A stretch of DNA of 37,974 nt from Microcaldota archaeon (GTDB lineage Archaea > Micrarchaeota > Micrarchaeia > Micrarchaeales > CABMGC01): assembly GCA_021803945.1 (NCBI GenBank), contig JAJZKW010000003.1, forward strand, positions 1 through 37,974, in the 5' to 3' direction. The notes below the pieces were generated by a model, which was not told where the DNA came from, searched no databases, and saw only the letters and a list, made by a program, of their open reading frames with translations. The position numbers and the translations under genes are program-made. Every line of letters starts with the position of its first letter. Within the stretch, counting starts at the first letter, position 1. Of the stretch, positions 3,984-34,033 are shown piece after piece.

Positions 3984-4085
3984 TGGACTCCGCGGGATTC
4001 GAACCCGCAACCTTCCGCACTTTTGGTGAACCTACTGAAATGGTTTCCTTGCAAAGCGGACGCGCTACCGTTGCGCCAGGAGCCC
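3984..4085 (-). tRNA. tRNA-Ala (anticodon UGC) with a 30-nt intron
   Basis: On the minus strand GGGCTCC (4085-4079) pairs with GGAGTCC, including a G3-U70 wobble, the alanine identity element. The D arm is GCGC-AACGGTA-GCGC, the anticodon stem TCCGC/GCGGA and the T arm GCGGG-TTCGAAT-CCCGC; the discriminator is A. The loop reads TTTGCA, then an intron at 4049-4020, then T, so the intron sits at the canonical 37/38 position. The precursor forms a bulge-helix-bulge: helix TTTG/CAAA flanked by 3-nt bulges CAA and AGT, cut CA^A and AG^T. The mature tRNA is 72 nt without CCA. Confidence 0.93.
4020..4049 (-). other. tRNA-Ala intron
   Basis: A 30-nt intron between positions 37 and 38. Its ends form the bulge-helix-bulge recognised by the archaeal splicing endonuclease, and its centre forms AACC/GGTT with a 9-nt loop. 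It is too short to encode anything. Confidence 0.85.
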
Positions 4086-17920: not shown

Positions 17921-20900
17921 ATGAAGAAATTCAATACTACCGATGAGATAAAGATCCCTGAGAAGCTGGTGGACCAGGTAATAGGGCAGGAAAAAGCGGT
18001 AAACATAATAAAGAAGGCGGCCAGGCAGCACAGGAACGTCATGCTGATAGGAGAGCCTGGGTGCCTTATTTCAGATGAGAGGATATTCCTTGGCAACGGA
18101 GCCATAGCAAAGATAGGGGAATTGGGGAATGGGCATCTTGAGCCAATAAATGTAAAATTGATTATAGGCAGTGGCAACAAGACAGACACAGCAACGGTAT
18201 TCCATGCTTATAAAAACCAGCCGCTTGTCGAGATTATTACTGAAAGCGGAAAAAGCATAAAGGGTACATACAATCATCCGATATTGACTGCTGAACGCTC
18301 ATGGAAGAGGCTTGACGAGATAAAGGCGGGGGATCGGGTTGCGGTGGTCAGCGGAATAAGATGCACTATAACAGAGTATATCAAGTCCGGCTTCAAGCCA
18401 ATAAAACGGAATAGAAACGGCCCGAAATTCTGGGGAAGGCTACCTGAGAAAATAACTCCTGAGCTAGGGGCGCTATTTGGATATATTATTGGAGATGGAT
18501 GGGTAAACAAAAATAGGGAAGGGATTGGACTGGTAGTGTCAGATGATGAGAAGGAGATATTGCCGGTGCTAGCCTCCATTATAACAAGCAATTTTGGCGT
18601 AGAGCCCAGAATATACAGGAGGAAGCCTCGCCATGGCAGGAGTATGCCTCTGGACTATTTAGAGATAAACAACAAGGATGTCTACCATAATCTTAAATTC
18701 CTGGGGGAAAAGCGCGTACCGAATCTGATATTAATGTCGGGCAATGAAGTTGCATCGGAATTTATCAAGTGGCTTTTTACGGCTGATGGAACAGTATATG
18801 ACGGCGGTAGAGGGCGGAGGGGCATAAACTTGAAGTCTGTTAACTTGGAATTGCTCAGGGACGTGCAGATGATGCTTCTTAGATTTGGAATTCATTCCAG
18901 GATTTTAGGAATAAAAGCGCAAGGAATTAATAACGCACCGCAATTGGCAATAAGGCGCGGGTATGACATAATAAAATTCAAGGAAAAGATTGGATTTGCA
19001 TGCAAAAAAAAGATAAAGGACCTTGAAACCCTGGCGAAAGACGCTGAACGATTTGCAAGGGTCAGAAAACAGCGCAGCGAACGCGTTGTAGAAGTGATAA
19101 GGGGAGGCCGGGCAGACGTATTCGACGTTGAGGTGCCGGTTTCACATAGATTTATAGCCAATGGGATAGTGACGCACAACACAGGAAAGACCTTGCTTGC
19201 ACAGGCCATAGCCGAGCTCCTTCCCATAACGGAGCTTGAGGACGTCCTGGTGTACAGGAACGTCAACGACGAGAACCATCCTATAATAAAGAACGTGAAA
19301 ACTTACGACAAGGTTGAGCCTGGAAAGCCGCTTGGCGACGGGCAGGGGAGGCAGATAGTGCAGAAGGAGAAGATCAGGTCGAGGATAAACATCTCCAGCG
19401 GCAAGGGCAGCATAGTCACTCCGATAATAACTCTGCTGGTGATAGGCCTTGTCATAATATCGCTTACAGGCCTTATAGCGGGGTATGAGCTTGTGCTGTT
19501 CGGCGCGCTCATACTAGGCATACTTATATTCGGCTCCGTGATCATATTCGTGACAAGCTTCAGGAGGGCGGGAATACTCCCAGGAGCGTTTGACACCAAC
19601 GAGCCTAAGCTGATAGTGGACAACACTGGGATGACCCATGCGCCGTTTTACGACGGTACAGGGGCGCGGGCTGGCCATCTCTTCGGAGACGTCAAGCACG
19701 ATCCGTTGCAGTGCATCCCGAAGGGCGAAATGGTGCTTGCGCCCAATGGGAATCCGATCAATATAGAAAAATTGGTAGACAGTTATTTCCCGGGCGACTC
19801 TGAAGGCGAGATAAACGTCCCGGGAAGCGCAGGGCTCAAGGTGCTTGGAGGATATGATTCTGAGTTCAAGCTCTCTGCAGCTGCGGTGAGGAGGCTATAT
19901 AGAAGAAGATACAATGGAGATATTATACGAATAAAGACAAGGAACGGTAGCGTTATTCGGGTGACGCCAAATCATCCGATAGCGTTCATCGATGGGTCCG
20001 GAAGCGTGGACTACATCGAAGCAGGAGGGATATCAAGAGACACCCGCATAGTAATTCCATCAAGAATAAAGAACACGGCGACTAAGGAGATGGATGACAG
20101 CATGCTCATTTTCATAGCCGACCTCCTAGCAGACGGATACATGGGCCAGAGGCACATAGAGTTCAATCTGAAGAGGGATTTCAAGATACGCGAGATCACA
20201 GATGACATAAAGAAACTGGGGTATATACCTAAAATAAAGATAAGGCCGGACGGTGCGACATGCATACAGGTGAATTCGGTTGAGCTGTGCAGGACGCTGT
20301 TTGATATGGGGATAAAGGAGGGGAAGGCTAAGAGGATACCAGACCTGGTATTCGGGCAGGAGAAGCAGAAGATAGCATTGTTCCTATCGAGATTCATCGC
20401 AATAGATGGATATGTAAACAAGAGCGGTCAGTTTGAGATATTGAATCCTAAGGGCATGATAGAGCAGATACGCTCGTTGCTGTTCATACTTGGAATAAAT
20501 GCGAAGTACAGGACGCGGATAGACAGAGGGTATGGAAAGGAGAAGCGTACGATACAACACATACTCAGGTGGAATCATTTCGTATGGGCACAGGAGTATT
20601 ATTCGCATACCATAAATCCGATACATATTGACAACCTGAAAGTTTACCTAGCTGCCACTACATTCAACAAAGAGTGCTATAATGACATAGTGCCTGTCGG
20701 ATTTGGCACGCTTGACCGGATAAGGACGTCTTTCAGCATGTCAAAAGAGGCAGTTCACAGTGACTACTGGTCGGTCAATCCAGGTGTAAGGAACCATACA
20801 AACCTTACGCGCAGCCTGCTCAACAAGATAAACGACAGATTCGTAGAGGTAGGGGGATTGGATGATGACACCTTAAGGCTTAAGAAGCTCGGAGAGGGCG

Positions 20901-22321
20901 ATTACGCATCTGATGAAATAGTAGATATAGAGATCGAGAAATACGACGGGTTTGTGTATAATATGACAACGGAGACGGGGAACTATATGGTAAACTTCGT
21001 GCTTACCCATAATTCCGGCGGCCTGGGGACCCCGGCGCACCTAAGGGTGGAAGGCGGGCTGATACACAAGGCGAACAAGGGGGTGCTCTTCATAGACGAG
21101 GTTGCTGATATCGAGCCGAAGTCGCAGCAGGAGCTGCTCACTGCCATGCAGGAGAAGAGATACGCGATAACAGGTCAGAGCGAGATGAGCTCCGGAGCCC
21201 TCGTAAGGACGGAGCCTGTCCCATGCGACTTCCTGCTGGTTGCCGCAGGGAACCTCCAGGACATACCCAAGATGCATCCTGCGCTCAGATCTAGGATACG
21301 CGGATACGGATATGAGGTTTACATGGACTCCACGATGCCTGACACCGAGCAGAACAGGGAGAAGATAATAAGATTCATAGCGCAGGAGGTCAAGAAGGAC
21401 GGGAAGATACCTCCTTTCGGATATGAGGCCTGCATGGAGATAGTTGAAGAGGCAAGGAGGAGGAGCGGGAGGAAGGGAAAGCTCACGCTCATACTCAGGG
21501 AGCTCGGAGGCGCGATAAGGGCTGCAGGAGACATGGCGATCGAGAAGGGAAGGAAGACAGTGACAAGGGAGGACGTGATAGGCGCGCTGAGGATCACGTC
21601 TCCGATAGAGGCGCAGTTCGTTGAGCAGTCGCTGGAGTACAGGAAGGATTACAAGATATTCAAGACTTCAGGATACGCGATAGGGAGGGTGAACGGACTT
21701 GCGATAGTCGGGTCGTCGTACCTGTCTGCAGGCATAGTCCTGCCAATAGTCGCAGAGGTGACAAAGTCGAGCTCGAAGACCGAGGGCAAGCTCATACCTA
21801 CAGGGAAGCTCGGAAAGATAGCGAAGGAGGCTGTGAAGAACATAAGCGCGGTAATAAAGAGGCACATGAACAGGGACATGGCAAGCTATGACATACACGT
21901 CCAGTTCCTGCAGACCTACGAGGGAGTTGAGGGCGACAGCGCTAGCATATCCGTTGCAGTGGCAGTCATATCCGCGCTTGAAGGCATACCGGTAAGCCAG
22001 GAGGTGGCCATGACAGGCTCGCTCTCAGTGCGCGGAGACGTGCTTCCTGTCGGTGGGATAACGAACAAGGTAAGGGCTGCGATAGAGGCCGGGGTCGCAT
22101 ACGTGATAATACCGGAGAGCAATGCAAAGGACATATACATAGACAGCAAGGAGCTGAAGAAAGTCAAGATAATACCTGTCAGGAACATAGCGGAGGTCCT
22201 GCAGTACGCGCTCAAGAAGAGTCCGAGGAGGGACCAGATGGTCGGCAAGCTCAGGAAGTACATAACAAACGACTCGCGCGAAAGGGCTCCGCTTGTGCTC
22301 GAAGAGGCTGATGAAGAATGA
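17921..22321 (+). CDS. lonB: Membrane-anchored archaeal Lon protease with two inteins
   Basis: A 1466-aa precursor. Removing two inteins (residues 48-420 and 598-1031) leaves a 659-aa LonB, the usual archaeal size. The AAA+ domain starts DQVIGQEKAV; Walker A GEPG-TGKT is split by intein 1, Walker B is VLFIDEV (Asp1059-Glu1060). Two membrane helices (about 498-520 and 522-546) are inserted in the AAA+ domain, typical of LonB. The C-terminal protease domain has the catalytic dyad Ser1340 (EGDSAS) and Lys1383 (GGITNK). It degrades misfolded proteins at the membrane. The stop overlaps the top6A start by 4 nt. Confidence 0.95.
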   Translation: MKKFNTTDEIKIPEKLVDQVIGQEKAVNIIKKAARQHRNVMLIGEPGCLISDERIFLGNGAIAKIGELGNGHLEPINVKLIIGSGNKTDTATVFHAYKNQPLVEIITESGKSIKGTYNHPILTAERSWKRLDEIKAGDRVAVVSGIRCTITEYIKSGFKPIKRNRNGPKFWGRLPEKITPELGALFGYIIGDGWVNKNREGIGLVVSDDEKEILPVLASIITSNFGVEPRIYRRKPRHGRSMPLDYLEINNKDVYHNLKFLGEKRVPNLILMSGNEVASEFIKWLFTADGTVYDGGRGRRGINLKSVNLELLRDVQMMLLRFGIHSRILGIKAQGINNAPQLAIRRGYDIIKFKEKIGFACKKKIKDLETLAKDAERFARVRKQRSERVVEVIRGGRADVFDVEVPVSHRFIANGIVTHNTGKTLLAQAIAELLPITELEDVLVYRNVNDENHPIIKNVKTYDKVEPGKPLGDGQGRQIVQKEKIRSRINISSGKGSIVTPIITLLVIGLVIISLTGLIAGYELVLFGALILGILIFGSVIIFVTSFRRAGILPGAFDTNEPKLIVDNTGMTHAPFYDGTGARAGHLFGDVKHDPLQCIPKGEMVLAPNGNPINIEKLVDSYFPGDSEGEINVPGSAGLKVLGGYDSEFKLSAAAVRRLYRRRYNGDIIRIKTRNGSVIRVTPNHPIAFIDGSGSVDYIEAGGISRDTRIVIPSRIKNTATKEMDDSMLIFIADLLADGYMGQRHIEFNLKRDFKIREITDDIKKLGYIPKIKIRPDGATCIQVNSVELCRTLFDMGIKEGKAKRIPDLVFGQEKQKIALFLSRFIAIDGYVNKSGQFEILNPKGMIEQIRSLLFILGINAKYRTRIDRGYGKEKRTIQHILRWNHFVWAQEYYSHTINPIHIDNLKVYLAATTFNKECYNDIVPVGFGTLDRIRTSFSMSKEAVHSDYWSVNPGVRNHTNLTRSLLNKINDRFVEVGGLDDDTLRLKKLGEGDYASDEIVDIEIEKYDGFVYNMTTETGNYMVNFVLTHNSGGLGTPAHLRVEGGLIHKANKGVLFIDEVADIEPKSQQELLTAMQEKRYAITGQSEMSSGALVRTEPVPCDFLLVAAGNLQDIPKMHPALRSRIRGYGYEVYMDSTMPDTEQNREKIIRFIAQEVKKDGKIPPFGYEACMEIVEEARRRSGRKGKLTLILRELGGAIRAAGDMAIEKGRKTVTREDVIGALRITSPIEAQFVEQSLEYRKDYKIFKTSGYAIGRVNGLAIVGSSYLSAGIVLPIVAEVTKSSSKTEGKLIPTGKLGKIAKEAVKNISAVIKRHMNRDMASYDIHVQFLQTYEGVEGDSASISVAVAVISALEGIPVSQEVAMTGSLSVRGDVLPVGGITNKVRAAIEAGVAYVIIPESNAKDIYIDSKELKKVKIIPVRNIAEVLQYALKKSPRRDQMVGKLRKYITNDSRERAPLVLEEADEE
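18062..19180 (+). mobile_element. Intein 1 of LonB, with LAGLIDADG endonuclease
   Basis: 373 aa. It starts at Cys48 (CLISDERIFL) and ends VTHN, with Thr421 as the +1 residue. It sits between the Gly and Thr of the P-loop (GEPG^TGKT). Block B is GTYNHPILT and block F FDVEVPVSHRFIANG. Two dodecapeptide motifs (LFGYIIGDGWV and FIKWLFTADGTV) mark a DOD homing endonuclease; both carry the acidic residue, so it may be active. It looks more AT-rich than the flanking exteins, consistent with transfer. Confidence 0.95.
19712..21013 (+). mobile_element. Intein 2 of LonB, with LAGLIDADG endonuclease
   Basis: 434 aa. It starts at Cys598 (CIPKGEMVLAPNG) and ends VLTHN, with Ser1032 as the +1 residue, inserted KHDPLQ^SGGLGTPAH. 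Block B is VTPNHPIAFID and block F YDGFVYNMTTETGNYMV. Endonuclease motifs FIADLLADGYM and FLSRFIAIDGYV are intact. Splicing residues (Cys1, block B His, His-Asn, Ser+1) are all present. Confidence 0.95.
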
Positions 22322-24659: not shown

Positions 24660-25490
24660 ATGCTGAGAAAGCCGGCATTCGCAGGAAGTTTCTATCCGTC
24701 TGACAGGAGCGAGCTGTCGGAGATGATTGACGGATTTATTGAATCCGCAGATGTGGACGTCTCTGTCGCCAGGACGTCTGTCTCTTATGTAGCTCCGCAT
24801 GCGGGATACAAATATTCTGGAAAAGTTGCCGCCTTTGCGTATAAGGCGATGGCAATGAGGGAGGACCTGGAAGGTTTGGATACTGTTGTGGTGATAGGGC
24901 CGAACCATACCGGACTGGGAGCCCCGATATCTGTATCAGGCAGCGAGTGGGAGACCCCGCTCGGCGTCGTTAGGAACGACCGCGAGCTCGCGCTTGGAAT
25001 TGCAAGGCAGTCTGGGCATATCGCAATCGAGGAAGAAGCGCATTCGCTAGAGCATTCGATAGAGGTGCAGCTGCCTTTTATACAGAAGGTTATAGATGGA
25101 CCTAGATGCTGCTTCGTATGCATGGGCGACCAGTCCACAGGATCATGCAGGATAATCTTCAACTCGATACGGAATGCTGCTGCAGAGCTTGGAAGGAGGA
25201 TAACGGTGATAGCGAGCTCTGACTTCAGCCACTATGAACCTGCAGATATCTCAGAAAGGAAGGATATGGATGCGATAGGCTTCCTGAAAAGGCTTGAGAT
25301 CGAAGGATTCCGCAGAAGCATGGTGGATTCGGGAGACAGCGCATGCGGCTATGGGCCAATAACAGTCTCCGCGATGTTTGCCAGAGAGATGGGTGCAGGA
25401 GCCGGCCATCTGTTGAAATATTCAAACTCAGGGGATACCACTGGCAACTACAAGTCAGTGGTGGCCTATTCAAGCATTGCGTTCTCCTAG
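24660..25490 (+). CDS. MEMO family protein
   Basis: A 276-aa protein of the MEMO family, structurally related to class III extradiol dioxygenases. It starts MLRKPAFAGSFYP, followed by APHAGYKYSG, GPNHTGLG, HSLEHSIEVQLPF and SSDFSHY; these carry the conserved His residues of the family. Its function in archaea is not established; related archaeal genes are often fused or linked to AMMECR1 and radical SAM proteins, which are not here. The ATG at 24660 matches the conserved N-terminus; a TTG at 24633 would add nine unsupported residues. It overlaps the convergent glycosyltransferase by 4 nt. Confidence 0.88.
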   Translation: MLRKPAFAGSFYPSDRSELSEMIDGFIESADVDVSVARTSVSYVAPHAGYKYSGKVAAFAYKAMAMREDLEGLDTVVVIGPNHTGLGAPISVSGSEWETPLGVVRNDRELALGIARQSGHIAIEEEAHSLEHSIEVQLPFIQKVIDGPRCCFVCMGDQSTGSCRIIFNSIRNAAAELGRRITVIASSDFSHYEPADISERKDMDAIGFLKRLEIEGFRRSMVDSGDSACGYGPITVSAMFAREMGAGAGHLLKYSNSGDTTGNYKSVVAYSSIAFS

Positions 25491-26701
25491 CCCCTGCTGC
25501 CTGCCAGGGAGTCCAGCATGTCCCTGTATTTCTCCGCCATGCGCCTCTCCGTGAACCTCTTCCTTATATTCATCGAGACTGCAATGGCCTTTCTCCTCAT
25601 CTCTTGGTCCTTGTAAAGGTCTCTTATTATGTTTGTCATGTGATGCTCGTTATGCGGATCGAAGGAAGGGATCCTGCCTATCTCCCGGTCTTTTAGGTCG
25701 TCTACATATGCGCCTTCAGAAATTGCGATGGGCAGCGCATGCGATGCGGCCTCTAGTATTGTCAGGCTGAACCCCTCCCAGAATGAAGGCAGCACGAACA
25801 TGCTTGATACGCTGTATGCAATGTTTATCCTGTCCTCATCTGCGGCGCCTATGAAAATGATCCTCCTGTCTCCTTTCGCCATCTCCCTGTACTCGGATAG
25901 GGACGGTCCGTCCCCAACAAGAAGGAGCTTTATGTTGCTACCTGCAACCGCCCTGAATGCGCGTATGAGTGAGCCTACATTCTTCTGCCTGTCGAACATC
26001 CGGCCTATGTACAGCACTACAAAATCCCCCTTCAGGATTCCGTGCTCCTTCCTGAAATGATCCTCATTTTTCTTGTGCCTGGACGGGCTTATGTCCAACC
26101 CGTTGGGTATGAGGACGACCTTTTCTGTGAATTTGGAGATGTCTTCGAGCTGCCTCGAATTAAGCGCGATATTCATGTCGTAGAATCTGAAGAACTTCTT
26201 TTTCTTGTCCGATAGCGTGAGCGCGTCTATATCTGTGCCGAAGGCCAGCGGTATGCCCTCCTTTGAGAGGAGGTCGTGTATGCTTGTGGAGACGCTGCCG
26301 TGGTCTATGTAAACAGACTTGAAAACTAGCCCTTTCCTCTTCAGGAACTCAAGCAGGTTTATGTCCTGTATCGAATTGGCTATTATGACGTCAGGCGCTA
26401 TCTCTTGTATCTTATTGAATAGCGACGTCTTGTCTATGTCTCTTAGGCCGCGCACTATGAACAAGCTGTATACGAGCCTGACAAGCCACATCTCGCTTAT
26501 GCCGCTCCTGCGTATTGAAAGGCCTCCCTTGTGCCTGGCCAGGAAGAAAGGGTTCTTCATTCCCTTCGAATATGCGGTGGGATATCCTAGGTAATATGTC
26601 CTGAAGTATCGCGAGAGCCTTTTGTTAAGCACAGCAGCTATCCTGGCCTGGCCGCCGAACTTGTTGAACTTTGAACCGAGGTCTACGATTAACACTTTCA
26701 T
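25487..26701 (-). CDS. GT4-family glycosyltransferase
   Basis: A 404-aa GT-B glycosyltransferase. The N-terminal domain has the Gly-rich KFNKFGGQARIAAVL loop. The C-terminal domain has VVLYIGRMFDRQKNVGSLIRAF, LLLVGDGPS and the GT4 E-x7-E motif (EGFSLTILE), which binds the nucleotide-sugar. It has no membrane helix, so it acts at the cytoplasmic face. Its ATG overlaps the stop of the upstream phosphatase-superfamily gene by 4 nt; it is the last gene of the RHH-cysDN operon. The sugar and acceptor cannot be read from the sequence; a surface lipid or protein glycan is inferred. Confidence 0.88.
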   Translation of the reverse strand: MKVLIVDLGSKFNKFGGQARIAAVLNKRLSRYFRTYYLGYPTAYSKGMKNPFFLARHKGGLSIRRSGISEMWLVRLVYSLFIVRGLRDIDKTSLFNKIQEIAPDVIIANSIQDINLLEFLKRKGLVFKSVYIDHGSVSTSIHDLLSKEGIPLAFGTDIDALTLSDKKKKFFRFYDMNIALNSRQLEDISKFTEKVVLIPNGLDISPSRHKKNEDHFRKEHGILKGDFVVLYIGRMFDRQKNVGSLIRAFRAVAGSNIKLLLVGDGPSLSEYREMAKGDRRIIFIGAADEDRINIAYSVSSMFVLPSFWEGFSLTILEAASHALPIAISEGAYVDDLKDREIGRIPSFDPHNEHHMTNIIRDLYKDQEMRRKAIAVSMNIRKRFTERRMAEKYRDMLDSLAGSRG

Positions 26702-28188
26702 TTCAATCTACGCCTGCTATTCTTGTAACCTGTCTTGAGATATTTAAGTATTAGCGGTTTGACGTCTTGGACATGCATCTTCGCCGGCCTTGATATCGCA
26801 TGGCTGGGATAGAACCCGAAGATCCCGTGTCTCAGGTGGTCACCGCTCTTCGCCCCTTCAGGCTCCATGAAATCGCTCTCTGTGGAATAATTGAACAGGT
26901 CTATCGTGTATCCCTTTGCTACCTCGACAAATAAGTCAGGCACTATGAACTTGTCCGTTTTTCCGTAGTAGGACGGGCCGTCTATTATGCTGGCTATGAG
27001 CTTATGTCCGTCAGGTGTCTTGAGTTTCCTGAGGTCGCCAACAAGCCTTGCAATGACTTTGGGCTTCTCCTTTGCGCTGACTGCTGGGCTTGAAAAGCGC
27101 GAGTCGTTTACCCATATGGTCGAGACCGGTTCGTTGGCTATTGCCGCAAATGCAGTCGTCTTTCGCATGTCCAAGTCGAAGAGATGCATCCTTGCATATT
27201 CTCCTGCTGACGGCCCGGAAATCGCCGATCCCAGGGCCTTGAACGCTGCGGTTTTTACCTTGTATGGCATCTTGTCGTAGACGCGCCTGAGCTTCGTCTT
27301 GAGCAGCTTCTCCCTCACCCCGTAAGATATGCTCCCCTTTCCCTTGTTGTCCATCGATTTCAGGAAAGAGCTCTTGAGCCTCTCGAATCCGCTGTTTACC
27401 ATCCACGAATTTATCAGGAATTTTGACTTTATGGGCTGCATGCCGTGGTCTGACACGAGCACCATGAGCGCGCCTTCTGTCTCCGCCCTCCGCGCGATCC
27501 TGTTCACGAATTTGCCTATCTCGCGATATATGGGGAGGACGTAGCTGTTCCGCTTCCTGTTTCCCATTGCAAAATGCTGCAGCCTGTCAGTCTCGGTGAA
27601 GCAGACGTATACAAATGAATAATCGTGCATCGACATCATGTCCTCTGCTATTGCAATCCGCGTCTTTATGCTCTTTACGAATATCCCTACTGCAGCCTCA
27701 AGGCTCATCTTTCCGGCCTTTATGTCCGCTTCTATGTCGGGCTCTCCCTTGAACCTGTATTTCTTCATGAGGCGACCAAGCTCTGTGCTGTTGGTCCTTG
27801 CCGGCAGTGGGAACCCGGTGAGCGCATCGATATTGCCGTACTGCGGAAGCCTTATGTCAGTGGCAGGCGTTATTACTAGGCACCTGTTCCCTGACTCGGC
27901 TATCTGCCTCCAGAAAGGAGGCACTTCTACTGAATTGTAGTACACTATGTCAGGGGCGTAGTCCTTCTTCATTACGAAAAAATCTGGAACGCCGTGCTCG
28001 CTGGGCTTTAGGCCCGTGTATATGCTCGGCCAGGCAGGGCCGGTCATCGGAGGGAGGGTGGATTCCATGTCCATAAGGATGCCTTCCTCAAGCATCCTGT
28101 TGAACAGCTCCATGCCCTTCTCCCAGCGCAGCTCTTTGAGTATCCACAATGGTACGGAGTCCATGCCTATCATGTATACTTTTCGCAT
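26698..28188 (-). CDS. Alkaline-phosphatase-superfamily phosphodiesterase
   Basis: A 496-aa enzyme of the type I phosphodiesterase/nucleotide pyrophosphatase group. Metal-site residues: Asp in MIGMDS, the nucleophile Thr in LPPMTGPAWPSIYTG, ETDRLQH, VSDHGM and a late GDHLRHGIFG. It has no signal peptide or clear membrane helix, so it is probably cytoplasmic. It lies 9 nt after cysN and overlaps the GT4 gene. The substrate is unknown. Sulfatases and phosphoglycerate mutases share the fold; the motif spacing and absence of a sulfatase CxPSR-type signature favour a phosphodiesterase. Linkage to sulfate activation hints at a nucleotide or sulfated/phosphorylated glycan substrate (inference). Confidence 0.82.
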   Translation of the reverse strand: MRKVYMIGMDSVPLWILKELRWEKGMELFNRMLEEGILMDMESTLPPMTGPAWPSIYTGLKPSEHGVPDFFVMKKDYAPDIVYYNSVEVPPFWRQIAESGNRCLVITPATDIRLPQYGNIDALTGFPLPARTNSTELGRLMKKYRFKGEPDIEADIKAGKMSLEAAVGIFVKSIKTRIAIAEDMMSMHDYSFVYVCFTETDRLQHFAMGNRKRNSYVLPIYREIGKFVNRIARRAETEGALMVLVSDHGMQPIKSKFLINSWMVNSGFERLKSSFLKSMDNKGKGSISYGVREKLLKTKLRRVYDKMPYKVKTAAFKALGSAISGPSAGEYARMHLFDLDMRKTTAFAAIANEPVSTIWVNDSRFSSPAVSAKEKPKVIARLVGDLRKLKTPDGHKLIASIIDGPSYYGKTDKFIVPDLFVEVAKGYTIDLFNYSTESDFMEPEGAKSGDHLRHGIFGFYPSHAISRPAKMHVQDVKPLILKYLKTGYKNSRRRLK

Positions 28189-28197
28189 CTTATCGCC

Positions 28198-29415
28198 TTA
28201 TTTTATTGTGCCTATCCCGGCAAAGTCCTTTTTGCTGTAAAGGACGAACCTGCCAAGCTCCTTCGTCTCTTCGAATCTCTCTACCGGGAGCCTCCTTTCA
28301 AATCTGACCTGCGCGTCTATGGCGTTCAATATCTCCGGCTTTGTCGCCTTTATTTTCTCCCCTGTTGTCGTATCTATCCCGTTAAGCACCTTGATCCCGC
28401 TGCATCTTATGTCAATCCCGTTGAACTTTATCTGCACATCCTTTCCGAAGCGCTTTGTCACGAATATCCTGGCGTTGACAGTATCTGTAAGCAACGGCCT
28501 GTCTGACAGCCCTGAGATCACCGCGCCCCTCAGAGCGTGCTTGACTTTCCTGTCTAGCCTTATCGCAACGTTCTCTCCGGCGTTTGCATTCCTTACCCTC
28601 TTTCCCTTGACAATTATCTCCCTGGCTACGGCATTGTCCATGCATGGCATGATGACTATCCTGTTTCCGGCAGCGAGCCTGCCGCTCACTATGCGCCCTC
28701 CGATCATGTTGCTGGCTTGGTCTAAAACCCCCTGCACTATGATCCTGAGCGGGCCGCGCTTGCGGCCTCCTGCCCTTTTTGCATTCTTGTATATCGCATC
28801 GATAAGCGCATCCCCGCCGTACCATCCCATCTTTTTGCTTCTCTTGACAAGGTTCTCCCCGTTATACGCGGATATAGGCACAAAGCATACGTTCTTTGGA
28901 TTGAATCCTATCTTCCCTATGAATCCGCCGAGGCTGCTCTTTATCTCTTCGAACCGGCCTTCATCATACTGTATCGTGTCCATTTTGTTTACTGCTACTA
29001 TTAGCCGCTCTATGCCAAGCATTCTGGAGATAAACAGGTGCCTCCTTGTCTGGTCCCTTACGCCTTCGTCGCCTTTTGCGGATACAAGGAGTATGGCTAT
29101 CTCGCCGTACGACGCGCCGCTTATCATGTTCTTTATCAGCTCCTCGTGGCCTGGTACGTCTATGAACGCAAATGCGAGGTCCTTGTGCTTTATCTCGGCC
29201 CTTGTGGTGTCGTAGGTCATCTCCTGCTCCCTCTCCTCAGCGAAGCTGTCGAGAATGAATGCAGGCTCAAAGGGCTTGTGCATCTTCTCGCTGTACACCT
29301 TTGCCTCGTTTATCCTTACCTGGGTGGCAGATCCAGTCTGGATGAGCATGTTGCCTATAAGGGTGGACTTTCCATGATCCTTATGGCCCAGCAGTGCGAT
29401 AGTTCTTACCAGCAT
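28198..29415 (-). CDS. cysN: Sulfate adenylyltransferase subunit 1 (GTPase)
   Basis: A 405-aa EF-1A-like GTPase that couples GTP hydrolysis to adenosine phosphosulfate synthesis by CysD. G1 is GHKDHGKST (usually GHVDHGKST), G3 DVPGHEELIKNM, G4 NKMD; two beta-barrel domains follow. EF-1A or SelB would look similar, but it follows cysD, 62 nt downstream, and is short like CysN. There is no fused APS kinase (CysC) domain. The spacer holds a weak TATA-like element, so internal initiation is possible. Confidence 0.85.
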   Translation of the reverse strand: MLVRTIALLGHKDHGKSTLIGNMLIQTGSATQVRINEAKVYSEKMHKPFEPAFILDSFAEEREQEMTYDTTRAEIKHKDLAFAFIDVPGHEELIKNMISGASYGEIAILLVSAKGDEGVRDQTRRHLFISRMLGIERLIVAVNKMDTIQYDEGRFEEIKSSLGGFIGKIGFNPKNVCFVPISAYNGENLVKRSKKMGWYGGDALIDAIYKNAKRAGGRKRGPLRIIVQGVLDQASNMIGGRIVSGRLAAGNRIVIMPCMDNAVAREIIVKGKRVRNANAGENVAIRLDRKVKHALRGAVISGLSDRPLLTDTVNARIFVTKRFGKDVQIKFNGIDIRCSGIKVLNGIDTTTGEKIKATKPEILNAIDAQVRFERRLPVERFEETKELGRFVLYSKKDFAGIGTIK

Positions 29416-29477
29416 ATTATACTCCTACAATGGTTTGGATCATATTGCTTGACTCTGTTCCAGTTCTCAATATATCG

Positions 29478-30266
29478 CTATAGATACCCGAGCGCCCTTA
29501 ATTTCTGCATCACGTATTCGCGTTCCTTGTCCATGTCCCTGCCTGACCTTTCCTCATCGGTTGTGGTCTCCAGCTCCTTTATTATCTGGCTGACGTCCTT
29601 TGCATCTGACTTAAGAGGCGTGGTGCAGTGGGTGCATCCCAGGCTCCTGTACCTGTAGCCGTTCCTTGAGAAATATAGAGGATTCACAGGTATGCGCTCC
29701 TGCTTCACGTAGTTCCATATGTCGATCTCGTTCCAGTCAAGCAGAGGATGGATCCTTACATGACCCTTCGCGTCGAGCTTTGAGGAGTAGTCATCCCAGA
29801 GCTCTATCGGCTGGTTCTTGTAGTCCCACTTGAAGTCCTTGTCCCTTGGGCTCATGTACCTCTCCTTGGCCCGTATTCCGTGCTCATCCCTGCGTATTGA
29901 GACTATGAGCGCGTCGAAGCCGTACTGATTCATCACCTTCTTCAGAGTATCTGGCTTGTTCTTTCCGCAGCATGCGGCCCCTACGAGATCCGGTTTTATC
30001 TCGCTGTCCGCGACTATCAGGTCCAGCTTCCATTTCTTGGCGAGGTCCTGCCTGAACTTGTAGGTCTCTGGGAAGTCTATTGAGTTGTCTATGTGGATGA
30101 CCGGGAACGGGACCTTGCCAAGGAACGCCTTCCTTGCAAGAGCGAGCATTGTAGTGGAATCCTTGCCCATGCTCCACAGAGCCGCAACGTTGTTGAACTT
30201 GAGCTTGGCTTCCCTTATTATATATATGCTCTTCTCTTCCAGCGTCCTAAGATCTTGTTTAATCAT
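29478..30266 (-). CDS. cysD: Sulfate adenylyltransferase subunit 2
   Basis: A 262-aa PP-loop ATP pyrophosphatase that makes adenosine 5'-phosphosulfate from ATP and sulfate. The PP-loop is LWSMGKDSTTMLALARKAF, followed by FPVIHIDNSIDFPE, the SIRRDEHGIRAKERYMSPRDK segment, HPLLDWNEIDIWNY and a C-terminal ERSGRDMDKE. These closely follow CysD rather than PAPS reductase (CysH). The chain ends QKLRALGYL. It starts 1 nt after the upstream 102-aa gene. Confidence 0.93.
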   Translation of the reverse strand: MIKQDLRTLEEKSIYIIREAKLKFNNVAALWSMGKDSTTMLALARKAFLGKVPFPVIHIDNSIDFPETYKFRQDLAKKWKLDLIVADSEIKPDLVGAACCGKNKPDTLKKVMNQYGFDALIVSIRRDEHGIRAKERYMSPRDKDFKWDYKNQPIELWDDYSSKLDAKGHVRIHPLLDWNEIDIWNYVKQERIPVNPLYFSRNGYRYRSLGCTHCTTPLKSDAKDVSQIIKELETTTDEERSGRDMDKEREYVMQKLRALGYL

Positions 30267-30267
30267 T

Positions 30268-30576
30268 TCAATCGTCCTTATTTAGCACTTGCAGCCCTGA
30301 AAGGTAGATGGTAGCTCCCCTTACCCTTGCCTTGTCCCTCATGAATATCGGGACTTTTGCGATCAGGTTGTACTTCGCGTCATAGAGGTTCGCGAAGGAT
30401 TTCGTAAGGTCCTGCATCTTGTTCAGCTTCCCTTCATTCGCAAATACCACCCTGTAATACCTTGCCCTGCCCTTCTCCAGGGAGTCGGCAAGGTTTTTCC
30501 AGTTGTCTTCGTTCTGCTCCTTCCAGAGCAGGTCCGCTGCCCTTTGTATTTTTGAATTGCCAGCCATAACAGTCAC
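30268..30576 (-). CDS. Uncharacterised 102-aa operon protein
   Basis: Not recognised. A soluble, charged protein of 99-102 aa: a helical N-terminal part rich in Asn, Glu and Trp (AADLLWKEQNEDNWKNLADS), then strands (RYYRVVFANEG and KYNLIAKVPIFMRDKARV), ending LNKDD. It overlaps the RHH gene by 4 nt (GTG start at 30576 inside GAGTGA); an in-frame ATG at 30567 is the other option. Position between a regulator and cysD, with 1-nt spacing, implies a role with the sulfate-activation enzymes or the RHH protein. Confidence 0.7.
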   Translation of the reverse strand: MTVMAGNSKIQRAADLLWKEQNEDNWKNLADSLEKGRARYYRVVFANEGKLNKMQDLTKSFANLYDAKYNLIAKVPIFMRDKARVRGATIYLSGLQVLNKDD

Positions 30577-30800
30577 TCTAGGTAGCCCAGCGCCTTTAGC
30601 TTGCTCACCACTGTCCCGGCGCCGCGGCTTCCCCTCTGCCTGGCTGCCGAGATGTCAGCGAAGGTCTCGCGGAGTATGTACGTCGCATAGTCCGAAACCG
30701 ATGAGAACCCTGTGTCCCTTATCCTCTCCTGAAGCTTCTCGAAGAGCTTCGTCGGTATGGTTATTGTCGTATACTTCCTCTTTTCACCCTGCTTCCTCAT
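30573..30800 (-). CDS. Ribbon-helix-helix DNA-binding protein
   Basis: A 75-aa MetJ/Arc/CopG-type protein. The strand KRKYTTITIPTKL is followed by two helices (FEKLQERIRDTG, then SSVSDYATYILRETF), the standard RHH layout; it should bind DNA as a dimer of dimers. The C-terminus ends VVSKLKALGYLE, close to the end of CysD. It is the first gene of the operon with the 102-aa protein, cysD, cysN, the phosphodiesterase and the GT4 gene. A 16-bp palindrome 17-32 nt before its ATG is a likely binding site, suggesting autorepression. Confidence 0.85.
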   Translation of the reverse strand: MRKQGEKRKYTTITIPTKLFEKLQERIRDTGFSSVSDYATYILRETFADISAARQRGSRGAGTVVSKLKALGYLE

Positions 30801-30816
30801 GGCCTTACCTGTATTG

Positions 30817-30832
30817 TAATGTTATAACATTA
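30817..30832. promoter_or_regulatory. 16-bp palindromic operator of the RHH-cysDN operon
   Basis: TAATGTTATAACATTA is a perfect palindrome. It lies between the minus-strand TATA element (30841-30850) and the RHH ATG, over the expected start site. Repressor occupancy would block initiation. Binding by the adjacent RHH protein is inferred. Confidence 0.7.
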
Positions 30833-30840
30833 TACAACAA

Positions 30841-30850
30841 GATATATAAG
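30841..30850 (-). promoter_or_regulatory. TATA box of the RHH-cysDN operon
   Basis: Minus-strand CTTATATATC about 41-50 nt before the RHH ATG; the predicted start near 30820 lies within the palindrome. Confidence 0.55.
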
Positions 30851-32705: not shown

Positions 32706-33461
32706 TCAGGAGCGGCTCAGCCAGGCGCCAATATTTTCTTTTACATTATCGTAGGGGGGCAGCTGGTCGAAGACTATGCTCTTTAGCTCTTTTGAATAGG
32801 CGCTTTCCATGGCCTCCAGTTTTTCCACAAAGCTATTCCTGTCAAACTTCATGTTGTAATATTTCAGCTTTGCATTGACCAGGTCTTCTTCGAATTTTAC
32901 ATGCTTATTTGCCGTCAGATAATGCAGATCGTATATATCTCTTGCCTTATCCCTTGTGAGTATGGCTCTCACTTTTTCAGCGCAGACTTCGGAAAGATCC
33001 ATGCCACTTAAGTATTTAATCGGAAGGGAGTATTGAGGAAGGTCAAGCTTCAATGGCAATGGTTTTTTTGCTATTGTCTCCCTCATGCTTATCTCGACAT
33101 ATACCCTGCACAGGTCTACCTTGGAGGTGAAAAGCGGGCCCCTGGCATCCACCCTGAAGGAGATTGAAGCATTACTGCCTGAAATCGGTTTTATGCTGTT
33201 CTCTACTCCAAACAGCTCCAGGTCGCGCGAGACCCTATTGGGCAGGTCGTGATGCAATAACGCCTCGGAAGCCGTGAAATCGAGATCCTCAGAAAACCTG
33301 CTCAAGCCTTGGAAAAACCAGAGGTACGTGCCGCCCTTGAATACCAGCGGAGCGTCTGAGAGACTGGTCAGTATGAGAGACTGCATATAATGTTTCTCCT
33401 GCTGCCATGGCCTTAATCCGCTCAGCCTTCCGATTTCAAATAATTGCGCTTTGTCAATCAT
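32706..33461 (-). CDS. abiEii: AbiEii-type nucleotidyltransferase toxin
   Basis: A 251-aa protein of the AbiEii/AbiGii toxin family, a DNA polymerase beta-like nucleotidyltransferase. Motif I is FKGGTYLWFFQGLSRFSEDLDF with Asp59 and Asp61 as metal ligands; a later RDKARDIYDLHYL holds the conserved Lys/Arg-Asp pair. In known systems this enzyme modifies tRNA and causes growth arrest, often as phage defence. The start overlaps the AbiEi stop by 4 nt. Catalytic residues look intact. Confidence 0.9.
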   Translation of the reverse strand: MIDKAQLFEIGRLSGLRPWQQEKHYMQSLILTSLSDAPLVFKGGTYLWFFQGLSRFSEDLDFTASEALLHHDLPNRVSRDLELFGVENSIKPISGSNASISFRVDARGPLFTSKVDLCRVYVEISMRETIAKKPLPLKLDLPQYSLPIKYLSGMDLSEVCAEKVRAILTRDKARDIYDLHYLTANKHVKFEEDLVNAKLKYYNMKFDRNSFVEKLEAMESAYSKELKSIVFDQLPPYDNVKENIGAWLSRS

Positions 33462-34033
33462 CTTATCATCTCGCTGATTTTTTTACTGCCCCAGTTGCCT
33501 GAGAAGATAGCGCCAAGCTCGCCTAGCCTTTTCCCATCCAGATAAGGTATGTATTCGTCTATCTCTTTTCTGGAATATGTATTCAGGTACAATCCGTCTA
33601 TAATGGCCTTTTCAGGCTCTGCTACGAATACATAACTGCCTGACTTTTGATATTTTTTATATCCGAAGAATAGGGTTCCGGGAATTTTATGGTAAAAAAT
33701 CCTCCTGTCTTCATAATCAAGCGTGTTTTTCGTGGTTACACATTCTATCCGTTTTGGCACCTGCTGTATGATACCGTGAAATAGGAGTGAGGAATTCAGC
33801 GATATGTATGACGGTTCAACAAGCTGGGTTGCGATAACCAGATCGTCTTCGGTGAATGATATCTTGCCCTTTCCTAGTCTTCTTGCCAGGCCCTTTTTGA
33901 CTAGCCTGGATGAATATACTGTAGAGATTGCCCTCGACTTGGAAATGATGTTTGATAGCTGTTGAATCGTGTATACGGAACGTCCAGAGCCTATGGCCAT
34001 ATCTTTTATCTGATACAACGATAGTTCTTTCAT
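33458..34033 (-). CDS. abiEi: AbiEi-type antitoxin / transcriptional repressor
   Basis: A 191-aa protein. The N-terminal ~60 residues form a winged helix (YTIQQLSNIISKSRAISTVYSSRLVKKGL), followed by the AbiEi C-terminal antitoxin domain with PSYISLNSSLLFHG and VAEPEKAIIDGLYL. The family neutralises AbiEii and represses the operon by binding inverted repeats upstream. Such a repeat is present at 34044-34071. It is immediately upstream of and overlaps the toxin gene. Confidence 0.88.
   Translation of the reverse strand: MKELSLYQIKDMAIGSGRSVYTIQQLSNIISKSRAISTVYSSRLVKKGLARRLGKGKISFTEDDLVIATQLVEPSYISLNSSLLFHGIIQQVPKRIECVTTKNTLDYEDRRIFYHKIPGTLFFGYKKYQKSGSYVFVAEPEKAIIDGLYLNTYSRKEIDEYIPYLDGKRLGELGAIFSGNWGSKKISEMIR

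Follow-up and report, generated by a model that had tools for sequence, protein, structure and literature searches.

A putative self-regulated ATP sulfurylase operon of Micrarchaeales archaea and candidate users of its activated sulfate

The locus and its conserved core

A stretch of 37,974 nt (positions 1 to 37,974) of contig JAJZKW010000003.1 of a Microcaldota archaeon (order Micrarchaeales, assembly GCA_021803945.1), called the window here, carries six consecutive genes on its minus strand: those for a ribbon-helix-helix (RHH)-like protein, a 102-aa protein named U102, the ATP sulfurylase subunits CysD and CysN, an alkaline-phosphatase-superfamily enzyme (PDE) and a family 4 glycosyltransferase (GT4) (Table 1). 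The source genome measures 902 kb over 26 contigs, and the nearest relatives retrieved with CysD are Micrarchaeota records. Our data argue for an ATP sulfurylase operon that controls its own expression and yields adenosine 5'-phosphosulfate (APS) with no classical fate, and these are the best-supported parts of the explanation proposed below.

A sequence-only reading had described the six genes as one RHH-regulated sulfate-activation and glycosyltransferase operon. Its observation holds in full, as an open reading frame (ORF) check reproduces all coordinates and spacings exactly, while its interpretation is supported in part only. All six ORFs have their starts and stops in frame. RHH and U102 overlap by 4 nt, as do PDE and GT4, and the remaining spacers are short (1 nt for U102-CysD, 62 nt for CysD-CysN and 9 nt for CysN-PDE).

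Table 1. Coordinates of the features discussed, in the window unless a locus is named
Feature	Location	Strand	Evidence or remark
RHH operator TAATGTTATAACATTA	30817..30832	.	perfect palindrome
RHH-like protein, 75 aa	30573-30800	-	RHH_1 16.7 bits, below cut-off
U102, 102 aa, GTG start	30268-30576	-	no family match, no PDB fold match
CysD, ATP sulfurylase small (catalytic) subunit, short form, 262 aa	29478-30266	-	NF003587, PF01507
CysN-like GTPase, large subunit, 405 aa, without CysC domain	28198-29415	-	GTP_EFTU 138.5 bits
PDE, alkaline-phosphatase-superfamily (NPP-like) enzyme, 496 aa	26698-28188	-	Phosphodiest PF01663 94.1 bits
GT4 glycosyltransferase, variable neighbour, 404 aa	25487-26701	-	Glycos_transf_1 PF00534 75.9 bits
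YgjP-like metallopeptidase gene upstream of PDE	L063:14791-15543; L134:4230-5027		Pfam match for the L134 copy
CysH-like PP-loop protein	L093:8527-9321; L094:7349-8137; L155:35-829; L156:5072-5887		

Judged by gene order, the unit conserved in relatives is RHH-U102-cysD-cysN. The CysD search returned 66 loci, and gene order was counted in the 63 archaeal ones that are left when L061 (Pacearchaeota) and the bacterial L065 and L067 are set aside. U102 immediately precedes cysD in 57 of the 63 loci and cysN directly follows it in 60, while RHH is the next gene upstream of U102 in 55 (43 on the same strand, 12 divergent), lies elsewhere in the locus once and is not in the locus in seven cases. What comes after cysN is much more varied. 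Among the 57 loci with a further gene, it is PDE in 5 (4 on the same strand), a second alkaline-phosphatase-superfamily type called c6 in 8 (2 on the same strand), GT4 in 14 (8 on the same strand), Memo in 4 and a different gene in the remaining 26. Of the genes in the flanks of the 63 loci, 14 of 18 for PDE, 12 of 14 for c6 and 8 of 22 matching GT4 are on the strand opposite to cysD. Since PDE and c6 lie mostly on the opposite strand and the gene after cysN varies, the six-gene order of the window is a local extension of the four-gene core. Among the named relatives, L002 alone repeats the window's PDE-GT4 arrangement in the same orientation. In two Thermoplasmata loci, L055 and L056, the gene that follows cysN, with no change of strand, is c6, and Pacearchaeota locus L061 joins PDE-cysD, a TauE-like permease gene and cysN with GT4, aminotransferase and epimerase genes. 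The six-gene regulated unit thus cannot be taken as a general feature, because many PDE genes are read from the other strand or are unlinked to cysD, which places PDE and GT4 on transcripts separate from that of cysD in many relatives, an outcome that the sequence-only reading had itself named as refuting.

The retention of these genes in a small genome, which had been called unusual, is the rule in this order. In a survey of 118 genomes, of which 51 have a completeness of 90% or more and a contamination of 5% or less, CysD was found in 96, accompanied by RHH in 90 of 96 CysD-positive versus 6 of 22 CysD-negative genomes and by U102 in 94 of 96 versus 6 of 22. In some CysD-negative genomes (G032, G094 and G107, for example) U102 or RHH sits where a contig stops, so the absence of CysD there may reflect an assembly break. 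U102 is kept in Micrarchaeum genomes even though it lies about 500 kb from cysD, as in G048 with cysD at C1:126 kb and U102 at C1:625 kb (within L148, G048:C1:619500-631000). The protein itself resembles nothing we searched: Pfam gives no match for the window copy and only scattered weak matches for 51 members of the family, a comparison with plasmids gives none, and for its AlphaFold model (pLDDT 81.6) Foldseek returned nothing at E ≤ 0.001, while the VIA-align scores over 995 chains did not exceed Z 3.4.

The RHH-like regulator and its operators

The first gene of the core is named RHH-like because its RHH_1 (PF01402) score stays below the cut-off of 20.5 bits, and its profile matches the RHH region of NikR weakly (E 0.02). 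The palindromic operator stands between a TATA-like box, TTATATA, and the RHH gene: it begins 17 nt past the first base of the box, and 16 nt separate its end from the RHH start. We scanned 150 nt upstream of 57 RHH genes, with one mismatch allowed, and found that the type of operator follows the type of RHH strand. Operator A (TAATGT-N4-ACATTA) is upstream in 41 of the 44 loci with a YTT-type strand and in none of the 13 with an FT-type strand, all 13 of which have operator B (AATTAT-N2-ATAATT). One YTT-type locus, L038, has operator B and is the sole exception to the match, and L022 and L029 have neither site. In L006 an FT-type RHH gene oriented like cysD carries operator B, therefore the split tracks the RHH strand type and not the orientation of the gene. 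A TATA-like box lies at most 30 nt upstream of operator A in 36 of the 42 loci that have this operator.

In its own 902-kb genome the exact operator occurs once, with one other site at one mismatch, where a reversed control pattern also gives two matches per strand. A unique palindrome at a promoter fits autorepression of a single operon, and the proposed RHH regulation is upheld by palindromic operators at the gene's own promoter that change together with the regulator. RHH is thus, in all likelihood, a dedicated autoregulator of its operon. A wider regulon in the same genome was considered and rejected given the one exact site. Like autoregulators of the NikR/CopG type, to which its weak profile match points, the protein has a palindromic operator at its own promoter; it differs from them in its sub-threshold RHH_1 score and in a CysD-like tail that takes the place of a metal-binding domain.

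This KLxALGY-like C-terminal tail is present in 56 of 57 RHH genes and 58 of 67 CysD sequences (KLKALGYLE in RHH, KLRALGYL in CysD), and elsewhere in the loci only in two small families. The end of bacterial CysD is similar, so the tail appears to belong to CysD generally and it is RHH that resembles CysD. We infer that it may serve as a docking element. An apparent similarity of the tail to APS kinase 7yq0 was dropped (E 0.64, not recovered by the tail profile).

Sulfate activation and the search for users of APS

CysD passes the curated model NF003587 (296.7 bits, cut-off 195) and stays below TIGR02039 (213.5 versus 396.6 bits); its Pfam match is PAPS_reduct (PF01507, 128.9 bits), and its best PDB match, 1zun_A, aligns over the whole length. 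The PP-loop SMGKDST is intact, with W31, S32, G34, K35, D36, S37 and T38 invariant in the alignment. Compared with bacterial CysD the protein is a short form that has no insert after residue 201. It carries a CC...CxxC motif (C99, C100, C211, C214), found in 65 of 66 CysD rows with an Opitutaceae row as the exception; the bacterial copy L067 is a fragment and stands outside this count. We take the pattern to be the [4Fe-4S] ligand pattern of APS reductases, and the ligands of a putative centre that resembles theirs are thus present. The motif was considered as a mark of the Micrarchaeales lineage, and this was rejected, as it is shared by the plasmid-borne CysD of Ilyobacter and Gemmatirosa and by CysD of five viral contigs; Ilyobacter differs in having cysC and apr genes next to its CysD. 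The viral copies (L192-L196) also have the LGY tail, and CysN, RHH and U102, looked for near them, gave no match. Two alphaproteobacterial short CysD genes (L078, L079) stand with genes named cysC that have the length of CysNC, next to a sulfotransferase in Skermanella and to a nonribosomal peptide synthetase cluster in Roseomonas.

The CysN-like GTPase is harder to classify, as it scores below the cut-off of the curated CysN model TIGR02034 (227.1 versus 336.1 bits) and higher, also below cut-off, with elongation factor 1A (EF-1A) models (276.9 bits). In the tree it forms a clade of its own (21 rows, support 100/100) apart from both EF-1A and bacterial CysN in a three-way split. A separate true EF-1A is encoded elsewhere in the genome, and the idea that the gene is a recent copy of it is not supported by the tree. 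According to PMC4342817, CysN is an EF-1A that bacteria acquired from archaea. As in the bacterial systems (cysDNC of E. coli, 1zun of P. syringae), a PP-loop CysD stands side by side with an EF-like GTPase. The differences here are the short CysD with its CC/CxxC motif, the GTPase without CysC and the added RHH and U102, and whereas E. coli has cysC next to cysDN, no convincing cysC was found in the Micrarchaeales genomes. By homology, CysD and the CysN-like GTPase very probably make APS from ATP and sulfate.

The families searched gave no convincing classical user of APS. The window had been noted to have no APS kinase, APS reductase or sulfotransferase, and for these families this extends to the whole genome: it has no match to PF01583, PF13469, PF00685 or PF01077, and its single PF01507 protein is CysD. 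The APS kinase model (PF01583), positive in 11 of 14 controls, matches at E ≤ 0.001 in 25 of the 118 genomes, in 10 of them over the cut-off and with a best score of 23.3 bits. Most of these matches span roughly the initial third of the model, and two go further, to position 114 in G087 and 99 in G008. Being weak and mostly limited to its start, as would be expected of P-loop proteins, they do not make a convincing APS kinase. Sulfite reductase (PF01077; 11 of 14 controls positive) was found in none of the 118 genomes. Sulfotransferases were found in none either, a negative that covers PF13469 and PF00685, for which only 2 of 14 controls were positive, and does not extend to PF03567, PF09037, PF05935 and others, which were not searched. 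PF01507 gives mostly one match per genome, which is CysD, and a minority of genomes add a weakly matching protein of about 515 aa; no canonical CysH was found, with AprAB outside the search. The expectation that APS does not enter classical assimilation is therefore supported by the missing sulfite reductase and canonical CysH, and we hold it with high confidence.

The suggestion that APS serves sulfated surface glycans fares less evenly. Glycan-related neighbours are indeed common, with GT4 after cysN in 14 of 57 loci and the sugar genes of L061, and the known route through 3'-phosphoadenosine 5'-phosphosulfate (PAPS) is not supported, because the proposed look for cysC or sulfotransferases in relatives yielded no convincing APS kinase and neither sulfotransferase family. 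Classical PAPS-dependent sulfation is thus unlikely.

A CysH-like PP-loop protein lies near RHH and alkaline-phosphatase-superfamily genes in G061, G070, G088 and G102 (Table 1). It has the LGY tail and has neither CC/CxxC nor the C-terminal catalytic Cys, whose motif in CysH we take to be ECGxH. In three of these genomes (G070, G088, G102) CysD was not found.

A close archaeal comparison is Methanothermococcus (PMC10322725), an archaeon that likewise activates sulfate and encodes a phosphoesterase close to its ATP sulfurylase. Its pathway differs in having APS kinase, PAPS reductase and the sulfite reductase Fsr, whereas no counterpart of APS kinase or sulfite reductase was found in Micrarchaeales. 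CysDN is reported in anaerobic methanotrophic (ANME) archaea, several lineages of which also have APS kinase and reductases (PMC6286981), and sat is mentioned for genomes of the candidate phyla radiation and DPANN (PMC12153355). The parts of the Micrarchaeum harzensis and Mia14 genome papers at hand (PMC8975820, PMC5498576) contain neither sulfate nor sulfur as a word, a word search of the PMC5864196 text at hand gave no mention of ATP sulfurylase or sulfate, and the portions of the literature covered gave no account of an archaeal CysDN under RHH control or without APS kinase.

Three further features of the window deserve mention. An AbiEi/AbiEii-like pair (type IV toxin-antitoxin) lies at 32706-34033 on the minus strand, just past the threonyl-tRNA synthetase gene. 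A Lon-like protease ORF of 1466 aa (17921-22321, plus strand) seems, from its translation, to be interrupted by two intein-like segments. A tRNA at 3984-4085 (minus strand), found by Rfam and missed by ARAGORN, is 102 nt long and hence perhaps intron-bearing.

Candidate APS users and alternative explanations

The foremost candidate users of APS belong to the alkaline-phosphatase superfamily. PDE is present in 72 of 96 CysD-positive and 8 of 22 CysD-negative genomes, c6 in 26 of 96 and 4 of 22, and one or the other in 91 of the 96. The two largely replace each other (65 genomes with PDE only, 19 with c6 only, 7 with both, 5 with neither), the choice differs inside genera g2, g11, g28 and g33, and the five genomes with neither also have no RHH. 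Within 10 kb of cysD lie 37 of 74 PDE and 17 of 27 c6 genes, in a CysD-positive set that still included G070, G088 and G102. PDE scores well above the PF01663 cut-off of 23 bits, and its conserved residues (D10, Thr in PPMTG, D201, H205, D247, H248 and H451; at the nucleophile, Ser in one row and a truncation in another) presumably form the two-metal site and the nucleophile. Its AlphaFold model (pLDDT 82.1) is nearest to phosphonoacetate hydrolase and to nucleotide pyrophosphatases/phosphodiesterases (NPP/ENPP), whose fold and metal and nucleophile residues it shares. It differs from them in being at most 14% identical, in having no signal peptide visible by eye and in co-occurring with CysD. 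c6 is of the sulfatase-fold type with Thr at the nucleophile position in 12 of 12 rows, so the Cys or Ser of formylglycine sulfatases is not found there. In L063 and L134 an operon of ygjP and PDE, unlinked to cysD, has its own exact RHH operator; the two PDEs start alike and are counted as one lineage.

From this mutual replacement and the gene neighbourhood we draw the following explanation. RHH would repress its own operon, and CysD with the CysN-like GTPase would form APS from ATP and sulfate; U102 would accompany CysD in a structural or regulatory role, and RHH may in addition use its CysD-like tail to sense that complex. Instead of being reduced classically, APS would go to a cytoplasmic enzyme of the alkaline-phosphatase superfamily whose nucleophile is Thr, either PDE or c6. 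This enzyme would pass the sulfuryl group on to a precursor of a glycan or lipid and release AMP; a GT4 gene is often adjacent. We give the whole chain, a self-regulated ATP sulfurylase operon whose APS is used by such an enzyme, a probability of about 0.4. The enzymatic step taken separately, predicted from family membership and co-occurrence, is tentative. The full version, where APS is the direct sulfuryl donor of a PAPS-free sulfation and the RHH tail makes expression depend on how far the enzyme complex is engaged or free, is unlikely as it stands.

A number of points weigh against this explanation. PDE or c6 is also present in 12 of the 22 CysD-negative genomes, Fisher values for co-occurrence are not corrected for ancestry and come from many incomplete genomes, and the 300-bit cut for c6 was chosen after the score gap had been seen. 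NPPs and phosphonoacetate hydrolase, which the PDE model resembles, hydrolyse their substrates, and we know of no alkaline-phosphatase-superfamily enzyme that transfers sulfate from APS. Among 52 regions with alkaline-phosphatase-superfamily genes (L095-L146, chosen mostly away from cysD), operator A occurs only in L134 and operator B, with one mismatch, only in L105; the 50 others have neither, so these enzymes are mostly outside the RHH regulon, and a regulon spanning them is mostly rejected, with the ygjP-PDE lineage excepted. The low CysN score, and a CysD tail and CC/CxxC motif that are not specific to the lineage, belong on the same side.

Alternatively, cysDN, GT4 and the genes for PDE and c6 may only share a surface-polysaccharide region, with PDE and c6 acting elsewhere, for example on a lipid-linked sugar phosphate, while an unlinked and unrecognised protein uses APS. 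The mostly opposite strand or missing linkage of PDE and c6, their presence without CysD and the NPP-like model all favour this, but near-exclusive replacement in CysD-positive genomes, even within genera, and the RHH operator in front of one ygjP-PDE operon do not, and we consider it somewhat doubtful. Sulfation could also run through PAPS after all, made by a non-homologous APS kinase and used by a sulfotransferase that is likewise non-homologous, or taken from the host. Bacterial short CysD does stand beside CysC-fused or CysC-named partners, in Skermanella also near a sulfotransferase, and our search covered two of the sulfotransferase families; however, these two gave no match in any of the 118 genomes, the APS kinase matches are weak and none is in the genome of the window, and CysDN would be pointless if PAPS were imported. 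This makes the PAPS route improbable.

Less probable again is that an atypical enzyme reduces APS for sulfur assimilation or for export of an intermediate to the host. Methanothermococcus offers an archaeal precedent with atypical later steps (PMC10322725), AprAB was outside the search and the CysH-like protein stands beside RHH, but it does so in just 4 of 118 genomes and has neither the catalytic Cys nor CC/CxxC, and sulfite reductase is missing although most controls were positive; we regard this as very unlikely. Finally, CysD and the CysN-like protein might adenylate another oxyanion or a macromolecule, a reaction that the EF-1A-like GTPase and the CC/CxxC centre would serve. The higher EF-1A score and the likeness of the motif to an Fe-S site point that way; against it, CysD aligns with 1zun_A from end to end, Ilyobacter CysD has the same motif beside cysC and apr genes, and the CysN-like clade branches apart from EF-1A, so that this is the most remote of the explanations considered.

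Most members of this archaeal order, whose genomes are of about 0.9 Mb, keep a costly activation of sulfate that consumes ATP and GTP, together with a regulator of its own and a conserved companion protein, and this step is retained despite no convincing APS- or PAPS-consuming enzyme from the families tested. The APS user, once found, would reveal either a PAPS-free sulfation chemistry or a new fate for the activated sulfate of these tiny acidophiles, and would tell what the cells put on the surface that contacts their hosts.

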